Positions 40,464-42,232 of a DNA stretch of 64,000 bases are shown here, in pieces. Position 1 is the first letter of the stretch. Every line of letters begins with the position of its first letter. Made by a program: the position numbers and the translations under genes. The stretch is taken from the NCBI RefSeq assembly GCF_020463795.1, contig NZ_CP080025.1, forward strand, positions 809,001-873,000, given 5' to 3'. Source of the stretch: Echinicola marina (GTDB lineage: Bacteria; Bacteroidota; Bacteroidia; Cytophagales; Cyclobacteriaceae). The notes below the pieces were generated by a model, which had not been told where the DNA came from, searched no databases, and saw nothing but the letters and a program-made list of their open reading frames with translations.

Positions 40464-40540
40464 ATACTACCGTATAGATAGCAAATTATAATTAATTCAT
40501 CTCAAAAAGAAGCCGCAAATGATAAAATTACCCATCTGAT

Positions 40541-40611
40541 AAAAACAAAAAAGAGAAGGCTTCTATGCATGATGGTCTCCCATTCTCCTTGTCATAAAAG
40601 CATTCTCTTTT
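40541..40611 (-). terminator. long-stem terminator of tRNA-like gene 1
   Basis: On the minus strand a 9-bp stem (40603-40611 with 40549-40557), one mismatch, then a further 9-bp stem (40593-40601 with 40559-40567, one G-U). A 25-nt loop closes it, and TTTTTTGTTTTT follows. The stem is unusually long for a simple terminator. Confidence 0.75.
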
Positions 40612-40626
40612 AATTAATTTAACACT

Positions 40627-40753
40627 TGGCTGTAGGAGAAGGACTCGAACCTCCACGGAGAAGTTAGGCAACACAAGAGCTCTATGTGTGCTTTATCCCA
40701 GAATCTCCACCCCCGAGACAGGAGGGCTTGTCTGCCAATTTCAACACCCTACA
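40627..40753 (-). tRNA. noncanonical class II tRNA-like gene 1 (GUC anticodon, 55-nt variable region, CCA encoded)
   Basis: The minus strand from 40753 folds as a cloverleaf. Acceptor TGTAGGG/TCCTACA (7 bp, one G-U); T8, G9; Leu-like D arm with 3-bp stem TTG/CAA, A14 and G18G19; 5-bp anticodon stem CCCTC/GGGGG with 7-nt loop CTGTCTC (anticodon GTC at 40719-40717, T37). After a 55-nt variable region comes T arm GGAGG-TTCGAGT-CCTTC, then G73 and encoded CCA (40627-40629). C at -1 can pair with G73. The body resembles tRNA-Leu while the loop resembles tRNA-Asp except for U37. The charging enzyme cannot be stated: G73 plus a long arm would suit SerRS. Charging and decoding are untested. Confidence 0.8.
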
Positions 40754-40786
40754 GTATAAAAGCCGCGTTTGACTTATTTGATGCCT

Positions 40787-40794
40787 CAAAGGTA
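40787..40794 (-). promoter_or_regulatory. -7 box of tRNA-like gene 1 (TACCTTTG)
   Basis: Exact TAnnTTTG on the minus strand, 34 bp upstream of the mature 5' end. A TTTA at about 18-19 bp further upstream can act as a weak -33 element. It predicts a 5' leader of about 25-30 nt to be removed by RNase P. Confidence 0.65.
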
Positions 40795-41045
40795 ATAAAG
40801 TCCTTTAAATTTTAAAATATAAACAATTTATTATATCAATATTTACACATTTACCACTAATCACCGACTCAAATTAACATTTACTTAATCAAACATGTGT
40901 TTTAAACTAAAATTTTATCATTTTAATAACGAAGCAGGTTTTATAGCTATAATTTGCAAATTTGCCAAACCAAAAAGCCAGCTTAAACCAACACAAATAT
41001 TTTTATTTGGAAAGAGCCATATGAAAAACAAAAAACTTATGACAT
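40795..41045. other. AT-rich spacer between tRNA-like genes 1 and 2
   Basis: About 250 bp with no open frame or clear hairpin beyond the short palindrome GCAAATTTGC. I see nothing else in it. Confidence 0.6.
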
Positions 41046-41074
41046 AAAAAAAACTATGAAATAGCATTCCATAG
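41046..41074 (-). terminator. rho-independent terminator of tRNA-like gene 2
   Basis: Minus-strand stem CTATGGAAT/ATTTCATAG (9 bp, one G-U) with a 3-nt loop, followed by eight T (plus-strand A-run 41046-41053). It is about 36 nt downstream of the 3' end of the tRNA-like gene. Confidence 0.82.
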
Positions 41075-41109
41075 CTTTAGTCAATTAACAATAAACCCAA
41101 AATAACCTG
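41054..41109 (-). repeat. 56-nt direct repeat, copy A (3' flank of tRNA-like gene 2)
   Basis: Nearly identical to 41820-41875; the differences fall in the terminator hairpin. It ends exactly at the tRNA-like 3' end, so the two genes arose by duplication of a unit that includes spacer and terminator. Confidence 0.85.
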
Positions 41110-41233
41110 CTGTAGGAGAAGGACTCGAACCTCCACGGAGTAGTTAGGCAAAATACGAGCTCGCTATTTGCTTTATCCCAGCTTCTCCACCCCCGAGACA
41201 GGAGGGCTTGTCTGCCAATTTCAACACCCTACA
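41110..41233 (-). tRNA. noncanonical class II tRNA-like gene 2 (GUC anticodon, 55-nt variable region)
   Basis: Same length (124 nt) and same acceptor, D, anticodon and T arms as gene 1, exactly 480 bp away. All ten differences are in the variable region. Six of them form three compensatory base-pair swaps (A-T to C-G, C-G to T-A, C-G to A-T in the inner hairpin), one is a bulge base, and three are in the outer stem. G73 is followed by CAGG, so CCA is not encoded and would be added by the CCA enzyme. C-1 again faces G73. Confidence 0.8.
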
Positions 41234-41271
41234 GTATAGATGAAAAGACCTTTTATCTCTTCCTTATGATA

Positions 41272-41303
41272 CAAAGGTAACACACCGTACAATAAAATAC
41301 AAA
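41272..41303 (-). promoter_or_regulatory. consensus Bacteroidota promoter of tRNA-like gene 2
   Basis: Minus-strand TTTG (41300-41303), 20-bp spacer, TACCTTTG (41272-41279). This matches the TTTG-N19-21-TAnnTTTG consensus fully. It is 39 bp upstream of the mature 5' end. Confidence 0.82.
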
Positions 41304-41329
41304 TACTACAACAAAAATTATTTATTATT

Positions 41330-41805
41330 GCATATTTTTCAACAAAACCACTCGATAACTAACTATTCATTAATTAATATTACAGGTAAGCTTGCGAGAT
41401 TAAGAATAAACCAATAGTAGTCGATCATGCATCCAATACAAGTTAATCGAGCTATCAAAATTTCAGGATGTAATTATGGTAAAAACTGATAACCAAGCCA
41501 TGTCTATTCACTTCAGCAGAAAACCAAGGACCAAGCCGAAAAGCCGGGGAAAAACAGTCTATTTTGGCTTTGATATGCGCTATTTATTAACCATAAATGG
41601 ACAAAGATGAACACGAATATTTATTTATAATACATCTGTGTTCATCCTTTTACGCAATTGACTGTCTCGGCGGGTCTGTGACTTAAACTAGGCTTAATCT
41701 AATAAGGGAAAACAAAATTTAAGTGTGAAATTATTCACCCCCAGAAATATTACTTGTCCCCCAACTTTTAGGACTGATCCAAAACCAAACCTTTCATTAC
41801 CATAC
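41330..41805. other. non-coding stretch upstream of tRNA-like gene 2 promoter
   Basis: No open frame over 60 codons and no protein-like translation. It holds one inverted repeat (listed separately). Otherwise I see nothing. Confidence 0.6.
41606..41646. repeat. inverted repeat GATGAACAC / GTGTTCATC
   Basis: 9-bp perfect arms 41606-41614 and 41638-41646 around an AT-rich loop of 23 nt. The outer sequence is partly complementary as well. It resembles the short dispersed palindromes of Bacteroidota intergenic DNA; only one copy is seen here. Confidence 0.55.
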
Positions 41806-41811
41806 TACAAC

Positions 41812-41844
41812 AAAAAAAGCTATGAAATAGAATCTCATAGCTTT
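41812..41844 (-). terminator. rho-independent terminator of tRNA-like gene 3
   Basis: 10-bp perfect stem AAAGCTATGA/TCATAGCTTT (41835-41844 with 41816-41825), 9-nt loop, then a run of seven T on the minus strand. It is homologous to the gene 2 terminator. Confidence 0.82.
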
Positions 41845-41875
41845 AGTCAATTAACAATAAACCCAAAATAACCTG
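41820..41875 (-). repeat. 56-nt direct repeat, copy B (3' flank of tRNA-like gene 3)
   Basis: Second copy of the repeat at 41054-41109. The spacer part (41842-41875) matches copy A exactly; the differences lie in the hairpin arms and keep pairing possible. Confidence 0.85.
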
Positions 41876-41942
41876 TTGTAAGAAAAGGATTCGAACCTTT
41901 CAAGTACTTATGTACCTCCTTTCGTGATTTTTTCACCTTACA
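41876..41942 (-). ncRNA. minimal tRNA-like RNA gene 3 (acceptor and T arm only, SD-like linker)
   Basis: 67 nt. Acceptor TGTAAGG/TCTTACA (7 bp, one G-U) and T arm AAAGG-TTCGAAT-CCTTT stack as in a normal tRNA, with T8 and G9 in place and A73. T at -1 pairs with A73, replacing the C-1/G73 pair of genes 1 and 2. The 33 nt between G9 and the T arm lack D and anticodon arms. They contain a purine linker with GAAAGGAGGT (41923-41914), complementary to the bacterial 16S 3' end, and a small hairpin GTAC-ATAA-GTAC. A competing hairpin GTGA/TCAC near the 5' end is possible. Confidence 0.68.
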
Positions 41943-41986
41943 ATTTATAATATGTAGAGAAGCTTTTCCTCTCCTTTAATATTCTA

Positions 41987-42017
41987 CAAAGATACGCTAA
42001 GATTTCTTAAACCTAAA
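41987..42017 (-). promoter_or_regulatory. promoter of tRNA-like gene 3
   Basis: -7 box TATCTTTG (41987-41994) fits TAnnTTTG exactly; TTTA (42014-42017) lies 19 bp upstream as a near-consensus -33 element. About 45 bp separate the -7 box from the mature 5' end. Confidence 0.68.
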
Positions 42018-42232
42018 ATTTTATAAAAGTTTTAACATATTTTTACATTTTTTTCAACAAACAAGGCTAAGCATTATCATTCAAGCCTTTACAAGCCTTA
42101 ATTTAAGCTGTTTGTTGAAAACTCAATAATCAATTTTGAGTTTCCAATATCCAATTTTTCAATCTACTCTTAGAAAACTAACGTATAATCAACAATAAAG
42201 TTTAAGTATTACAGATTTTTCAAATAAACCTC

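Follow-up and report, generated by a model that had tools for sequence, protein, structure and literature searches.

A family of tRNA-like RNAs in Bacteroidota with aspartate identity bases and a GatCAB-type acceptor: a candidate non-decoding adaptor

In the indirect pathway, tRNA-Asn and tRNA-Gln are served by AspRS or GluRS and then by GatCAB. The strong aspartate determinants are G73, G34, U35, C36 and C38, with G2-C71 playing a minor part, and G1-C72, which is strictly conserved in bacterial tRNA-Asp, helps to place the 3' end in AspRS (PMC9976931). Amidation of Asp-tRNA(Asn) is conferred by U1:A72 and prevented by G1-C72 (PMC9976931, PMC4206432). U20a likewise blocks amidation of Asp-tRNA(Asp), and G73 acts as an antideterminant against LeuRS (PMC9976931). 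SerRS ignores the anticodon and recognises a long variable arm together with G73 (PMC7609411). In a survey of 547 bacterial genera, AsnRS, GlnRS and GatCAB occur together in 67-68, of which 49 have asparagine synthetase and 18 are without any; Bacteroidetes are among the clades named (PMC4206432). Two proposals were made there, namely, tRNA-dependent Asn synthesis via a relaxed AspRS and tRNA-Asn, or, in some genera, vestigial retention of GatCAB. The accessible sections of that survey (PMC4206432) contain no mention of a dedicated RNA for GatCAB.

Several unusual tRNAs are also relevant. The non-proteinogenic tRNA-Gly of Staphylococcus aureus is a charged-looking tRNA diverted from translation (PMC4052509). 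The tRNAOther of Bacillus cereus has a tRNA shape outside translation, possibly within longer transcripts, and in one strain it borders a pathogenicity island (PMC3399842). Allo-tRNAs and selC* tRNA-Cys carry a long variable arm, and GUC is among the allo-tRNA anticodons (PMC7609411). The available portions of two reviews of odd tRNAs, covering allo-tRNAs and others (PMC7609411, PMC8007984), describe nothing of the kind reported below.

We analysed 64,000 nucleotides of Echinicola marina DNA (the window), corresponding to positions 809001-873000 of a single-contig 5.69 Mb genome. Two minus-strand genes, each 124 nt long through the discriminator base, start 480 bp apart (Table 1). Both copies adopt a class II tRNA fold with a 7-bp acceptor, A14, G18G19 and the T loop TTCGAGT. 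The acceptor, TGTAGGG/TCCTACA, contains U1:A72 and G2:C71 and is followed by the discriminator G73 and an encoded C74. The anticodon stem CCCTC/GGGGG closes the loop CTGTCTC, in which the anticodon GUC is flanked by U33 and U37, whereas the D arm is tRNA-Leu-like and the variable region comprises 55 nt. A preliminary description, made from the letters of this DNA, had reported the pair of cloverleaf genes with the same loop, D arm and variable region, and our analysis confirms it on all these points. The variable arms of the two copies differ by compensatory changes (GCAAATA..TATTTTGC in copy 1 versus GCACACA..TGTGTTGC in copy 2). Minimum-energy folding of two 125-nt stretches, the second of which starts 2 nt inside the 5' end, is not unusual against shuffles (z -0.47 and +0.82); the tRNA-shaped structure is accepted here on comparative evidence, not on thermodynamic folding. 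The apical loop GAGCTC, a 6-base palindrome, recurs in the variable-arm hairpin of many Cyclobacteriaceae members of the family, including both window copies, and could allow kissing-loop dimers.

Table 1. Coordinates of the tRNA-like genes and associated elements in the window
Feature	Position	Strand	Evidence
-7-like box TACCTTTG before copy 1	41272..41279	-	agrees with TAnnTTTG
Copy 1, tRNA-like RNA (bases 1 to 73)	41110..41233	-	model R1, 146.2 bits; C74 at 41109
Copy 1 anticodon GUC, loop CUGUCUC (U37, C38)	41197..41199	-	sequence, family tally
Copy 1 variable region, 55 nt, with stem GGAG/CTCC, internal loop GATAAA/CTAA and a hairpin whose loop GAGCTC is palindromic	41135..41189	-	
Conserved 3' trailer of copy 1, GGTTATTTTGGGTTTATTGTTAATTGA	41081..41107	-	sequence, comparison across loci
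Terminator-like hairpin and T run after copy 1	41046..41078	-	sequence; absent from terminator scan listing
-7-like box TACCTTTG before copy 2	40787..40794	-	agrees with TAnnTTTG
Copy 2, tRNA-like RNA (bases 1 to 73)	40630..40753	-	model R1, 148.2 bits; C74 at 40629
Copy 2 anticodon GUC, loop CUGUCUC	40717..40719	-	sequence, family tally
Copy 2 variable region, 55 nt, architecture of copy 1 with compensatory changes	40655..40709	-	
Short 67-nt tRNA-like unit with acceptor and T arm but lacking an anticodon arm; a trailer like that of copy 1 follows	41876..41942	-	R1 21.2 bits, E 0.125
Copy-1-type trailer after the short unit	41847..41875	-	sequence, comparison across loci
Intrinsic-terminator-like hairpin after the short unit	41816..41844	-	terminator scan: 1 in region, shuffles mean 1.2

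The genome contains five full copies, the two in the window and three single ones near 2.978, 3.061 and 3.428 Mb. ARAGORN called no tRNA in the window; Rfam returned nothing there at gathering thresholds and, in 40500-42100, no match to a tRNA even at E<=5. A search of the whole genome with RF00005 yielded 38 tRNAs, none of which are copies of the tRNA-like RNA, and the copies are not among the matches listed for the tmRNA model. A replacement tmRNA was rejected because a separate normal tmRNA is found at 5321302-5321711. The preliminary description had also asked whether a normal tRNA-Asp(GUC) exists elsewhere, and there are three such genes. All 38 ordinary tRNAs have U33 and a purine at position 37. 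Among them, U1:A72 is confined to tRNA-Asn and tRNA-Gln, and the tRNA-Asn has G73. Only C74 of the CCA end is encoded by 37 of the 38 tRNA genes, the exception being one tRNA-Glu with the full CCA. Since the new genes likewise encode C74 without CA, tRNA-type 3' maturation is likely. The genome encodes GatB and AsnRS, and a GlnRS search in it gave no match.

Related sequences are widespread. A 34-nt segment of the RNA body, used as an exact pattern, matches at least 119 stretches of named genomes, and the matches listed are mostly from Cyclobacteriaceae (Algoriphagus, Echinicola, Cyclobacterium, Cecembia, Belliella and others), with further ones in records titled Flammeovirgaceae, Spirosoma and Bacteroidetes. 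A covariance model, R1, was built from 28 sequences. On the phylum sample (395 genomes) it gives family members 75-148 bits, versus at most 62.7 bits for tRNA-Leu-sized matches; in the host genome the best match outside the family is its own tRNA-Leu(GAG), with 55.8 bits. Judged from sequence, tRNA-Leu is the probable ancestor of the tRNA-like RNA. The search of Bacteroidota with a covariance model, which the preliminary description had called for, thus recovered a family: at E<=1e-13, 68 of the 395 genomes of the class sample carry the RNA, over 19 family-level groups, a count that includes three doubtful low scorers (L259, L260 and L261, 68.6-74.6 bits).

In the 28-sequence MAFFT alignment, a structure of 31 pairs has 98.0% of its cells paired, 11 pairs are changed on both sides, and covariation reaches 0.190 versus 0.089 in shuffles, with 0 of 500 as high. 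The corresponding values for 102 distinct rows, in an alignment fitted to the model, are 97.0% paired, two-sided changes in 23 of the 31 pairs, and covariation of 0.444 versus 0.172, again with 0 of 500 shuffles as high. The first MAFFT alignment (A2), in which the longest variable arms were misaligned, was excluded from the counts. Decay of an ordinary tRNA into copies without homologues in other genomes, the outcome against which the preliminary description had set its own proposal, is ruled out by the covariation, the wide spread and the five copies in the genome. Among 95 distinct members from genome searches, the variable region measures 38-123 nt, with a median of 55, and the RNA as a whole 107-195 nt. 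By a simple pattern, both halves of the internal loop GAYAAA/CUAA are present in the variable region of 73 of the 95, and the element GGRTYGACCAC in the variable arm of 37. Small palindromes, e.g. CCCGATAGCTATCGGG, are found within the variable arm of L109, L149, L033, L084 and others, and look as if they were inserted, tolerated repeat elements. An intron, including a group I intron, was considered for the variable region and set aside, as Rfam gave no match. One family member, L150, lies at 165-312 of a 4.9-kb contig of a viral collection (IMGVR_UViG_3300000101_004218). It is the one match in viral contigs and neighbouring genes are housekeeping, so that cargo of a mobile element or phage was rejected.

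To compare bases at individual positions we used 94 members, all of them genome-search relatives whose loops were not used for exact-pattern selection. From 106 rows, seven derived from pattern-selected loci and the window were dropped, leaving 99; these comprise 95 distinct sequences, one of which was dropped for a gapped loop. U1:A72, G2:C71, G73, C74, U35, C36 and G18G19 are present in all 94 members, C38 in 92 and G34 in 90. By contrast, the bases at positions 33 and 37 vary: at 33, 71 members have U, 12 G, seven A and four C; at 37, 76 have U, nine C, eight G and one A, so that a purine is found there in only nine. Set against the published determinants, these tallies indicate that the family keeps the five AspRS determinants and the GatCAB signal and drops the decoding features. 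As in a decoding tRNA, there is a 7/5 acceptor domain (7 acceptor and 5 T-stem pairs) in a cloverleaf with A14, G18G19 and the T loop, but U33 and purine-37 are not conserved and standard models do not detect the RNA. As in an AspRS substrate, G73, G34, U35, C36 and C38 are there, but U1:A72 (94/94) stands in place of G1:C72. Of the features of a GatCAB substrate, the RNA has U1:A72 and the hosts have GatCAB, the latter judged from GatB.

In the 102-row alignment, acceptor pairs 4 to 7 vary freely, whereas U1:A72 is kept in 101 rows, the exception being L150 (A1:U72); A51-U63 is found in 98. C34 occurs in L178 and L184, and U34 in L175 and the doubtful L261, all of which keep U35 and C36. By sequence, their anticodons are those of Glu, which GatCAB amidates besides Asp. 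A38 is seen in L259 and L261, both low-scoring. A relative in genome G072, a genus-mate of the C34 carriers that was counted as RNA-negative, has A34, its variable loop is short, and it keeps U1:A72, G73, U35, C36 and C38. The length of the D loop varies among members, which makes numbering past G19, and thus the U20a position, uncertain.

With the tRNA-Asn and tRNA-Gln of the indirect pathway the new RNA shares U1:A72, G73 (as in the host tRNA-Asn) and occurrence in GatCAB genomes. It differs from them in its Asp loop in place of GUU, its class II body, its long structured variable region and the loss of U33 and purine-37, and its hosts also have AsnRS and often GlnRS. G73, G34, U35, C36, C38 and G2:C71 are common to bacterial tRNA-Asp, in which, however, G1:C72 replaces U1:A72, a purine replaces U37, and neither the Leu-like D arm nor a variable region of 38-123 nt is found. 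The D arm, the T arm and an unpaired GU before the T stem are those of tRNA-Leu, but G73 (94/94) is present instead of A73, the loop is of the Asp type and the variable arm is far longer, with a conserved internal loop. A51-U63 is shared with the S. aureus tRNA-Gly; unlike the latter, as described in the accessible text (PMC4052509), the new RNA keeps G18G19, is far larger, points to another amino acid and has no cell-wall transferase link that we found. In contrast to tRNAOther (PMC3399842), the family is widely conserved, multi-copy and covarying. Allo-tRNAs have 8/4 or 9/3 acceptor domains and diverse anticodons (PMC7609411), versus 7/5 and a nearly fixed anticodon here. No description of this RNA was recognised in a search of the open-licence PubMed Central literature, and the family is apparently undescribed in Bacteroidota. 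It is new to the resources searched, and in kind it is closest to translation-diverted tRNAs and the indirect Asn pathway.

The RNA co-occurs with GatB. In the class sample of 395 genomes, which are related to one another, GatB (PF02934 matches) is found in 306 genomes, namely, in all 68 RNA carriers versus 238 of the 327 others (Fisher 5e-9, a statistic that ignores phylogeny). GlnRS is present in 135 of the 395, and these genomes form the informative set because GatCAB is not needed there for Gln-tRNA. With a cut for strong GatB of E<1e-100, chosen after the values were seen, 40 of the 135 have both GatB and the RNA, one has GatB only (G723), none has the RNA only and 94 have neither; counting any GatB match, the numbers become 40, 18, 0 and 77. 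The matches in the extra 17 genomes are divergent in family f66 (E about 1e-93 to 1e-99) and weak in the others (E about 1e-40 or weaker), and a more sensitive search of these 17 genomes found no RNA. GlnRS genomes of families f66, f69, f107 and f65 combine divergent or weak GatB (E about 1e-40 to 1e-99) with absence of the RNA, and these matches may represent GatB relatives with another role. Across the eight families that hold both GatB and the RNA, the two agree in 46 of 47 GlnRS genomes. Included in this agreement are six genomes with neither GatB nor the RNA, which belong to three families with carriers, f4 (G002, G359, G122), f5 (G017, G115) and f56 (G495); the absence was rechecked in five of the six. 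In a panel of 80 genomes, all with GatB and comprising 34 of the 68 carriers and 46 non-carriers, AsnRS is encoded by 79, and GatCAB should therefore be spare for translation where GlnRS exists. GlnRS is found in 20 of the 34 carriers versus 2 of the 46 non-carriers. Thus, non-carriers with GatCAB nearly always need it for Gln, whereas carriers often do not. Of the 248 genomes with GatB and no GlnRS, only 28 are carriers, which shows that the RNA is not needed for Gln-tRNA formation. The tie to GatCAB had escaped the preliminary description, as had the three further full copies and the short unit listed in Table 1.

The box TACCTTTG lies 39-46 nt upstream of each window copy and matches TAnnTTTG, which we take to be the -7 promoter box of the Bacteroidota type. 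TAnnTTTG is present in 100 of 173 distinct 90-nt stretches upstream of pattern-matched relatives, versus a mean of 9.9 and a maximum of 19 in 200 shuffles. The multi-copy genes carry their own promoter-like boxes. Downstream, the trailer CAGGTTATTTTGGGTTTATTGTTAATTGACTAAA followed by a terminator-like hairpin occurs 84 times in the loci examined, 61 times after full RNAs and 23 times after short units, and 24 consecutive bases of the trailer are invariant across 72 distinct loci (among L031-L149 and the window). The trailer may be a small RNA freed by tRNA-type 3' processing. A short open reading frame in it ending in GAC-TAA was rejected because stops are nearby in all three frames. Two further R1 matches in the genome are weaker, at 27.5 and 21.2 bits (E 0.003 and 0.125). 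Both are short units that consist of the acceptor, including U1:A72, and the T arm only; they have no anticodon arm, and their middle differs between species. The one outside the window is at G000:C1:3060861-3060954 (minus), and a 72-nt stretch at the one in the window (41942..41876) folds with z -3.36. The possibility that the anticodon stem (CCTCCT) imitates the anti-Shine-Dalgarno tail of 16S rRNA was discarded, since the stem, judged by eye, changes freely (CCCGC, CCGTC, CCTCC). No functional gene neighbour of the RNA was found in the loci compared. The recurrent neighbour clusters are RluD-like (71 loci), large AsmA-like (70), Lrp-like (23) and SufB-like (22), presumptive names which, like the label housekeeping, we assigned from reading the sequences by eye.

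Given the fold, the conservation pattern, the multi-copy genes with promoter-like boxes and the co-occurrence with GatB, we lean, with modest confidence, towards the genes encoding a tRNA-Leu-derived, non-decoding adaptor between AspRS and GatCAB, on which Asn would be made outside translation. The RNA would be transcribed and receive its CCA end. AspRS would read G73 and the GUC-N-C loop and attach Asp, and GatCAB would read U1:A72 and turn Asp into Asn on the RNA. The charged RNA would stay outside translation, because U33 and purine-37 are not preserved and the variable region is so large. Asn would then be released, as an RNA-dependent Asn supply, or handed to another acceptor. In this way the RNA would bridge an AspRS unable to charge tRNA-Asn to GatCAB. 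The use of the product is the weakest step of this reading, in that it calls for free Asn rather than a transfer reaction; if asparagine synthetases are generally present, a supply of free Asn would be less needed. Furthermore, U1:A72 may weaken aspartylation, since the G1-C72 that it replaces helps to place the 3' end of tRNA-Asp in AspRS.

The same conserved elements and the same co-occurrence with GatB would be expected of a scaffold or regulator: bound to AspRS and GatCAB through these identity bases, it would assemble or tune the transamidosome, which is a ternary aaRS:tRNA:AdT complex (PMC9976931), charging not being its purpose. The internal loop (73/95) and GGRTYGACCAC (37/95) of the variable arm could dock a protein. 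However, the strict G73 and C74 (94/94) suggest a processed, charged 3' end, and GatCAB evidently works without the RNA in most GatB genomes that lack GlnRS (RNA in only 28/248); we consider such a role unlikely. Charging would be retained if the RNA donated Asp or Asn to a non-ribosomal transfer in cell wall, lipid or peptide tailoring, in the manner of the staphylococcal tRNA-Gly. The non-decoding loop combined with a kept charging set fits such a donor, as does A51-U63 (98/102), a pair reported to weaken EF-Tu binding in the non-proteinogenic tRNA-Gly (PMC4052509). Yet no transferase recurs among the neighbours, which are housekeeping and differ between sub-groups, G18G19 is kept in 94/94, unlike in the staphylococcal tRNAs, and transfer of Asp alone would leave the tie to GatB unexplained, so that a donor appears quite unlikely to us.

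The remaining readings concern decoding and processing. The preliminary description had proposed either altered charging, with Ser or Leu at an Asp codon as its example, or a non-decoding RNA of tRNA shape. The second part is supported, in that U33 and purine-37 are not kept; Ser or Leu at an Asp codon is not. For Leu, the obstacle is G73 in 94/94, the antideterminant against LeuRS (PMC9976931). A long arm with G73 is what SerRS recognises (PMC7609411), and such an RNA could place Ser on an Asp codon or elsewhere; but an enzyme blind to the anticodon leaves the conserved GUC-N-C (U35 and C36 in 94, C38 in 92 and G34 in 90 of 94) unexplained, as well as the link to GatB, and the G072 relative keeps U35, C36, C38, U1:A72 and G73 even without the long arm. 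Acceptance of Ser is, in our view, very unlikely. An odd but ordinary tRNA-Asp decoding GAC/GAU is just as improbable: the aspartate set is present and U33 is found in 71/94, including the window copies, but the genome already has three normal tRNA-Asp(GUC) genes, U33 is replaced by G, A or C in 23/94, and a purine at 37 occurs in 9/94 versus 38/38 ordinary tRNAs. Finally, the main role of the tRNA shape might lie in processing, as a signal for the release of a regulatory 3' RNA. The invariant trailer at 84 places, after 61 full RNAs and 23 short units, agrees with this, and the pseudo-tRNA tRNAOther of B. cereus belongs to a larger regulatory RNA (PMC3399842). Window copy 2 and the distant relatives listed nevertheless have other trailers, and the trailer explains neither the conserved anticodon loop nor the link to GatB, making this reading very unlikely.

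The RNA is invisible to standard tRNA finders and Rfam, and genomes that carry it are consequently mis-annotated. If the adaptor reading is true, a conserved descendant of a tRNA has kept its charging identity without the features of decoding, which would separate two constraints that are normally inseparable. We regard it as possible, although a little short of probable, that the family represents a categorically new class of RNA, a dedicated non-decoding carrier for Asp-to-Asn conversion outside translation; proof of the carrier mechanism would establish that class. For one large group of bacteria the RNA offers a concrete, testable reason for the retention of GatCAB, and, if the adaptor reading holds, it would explain why many Bacteroidota retain this enzyme despite having both AsnRS and GlnRS.
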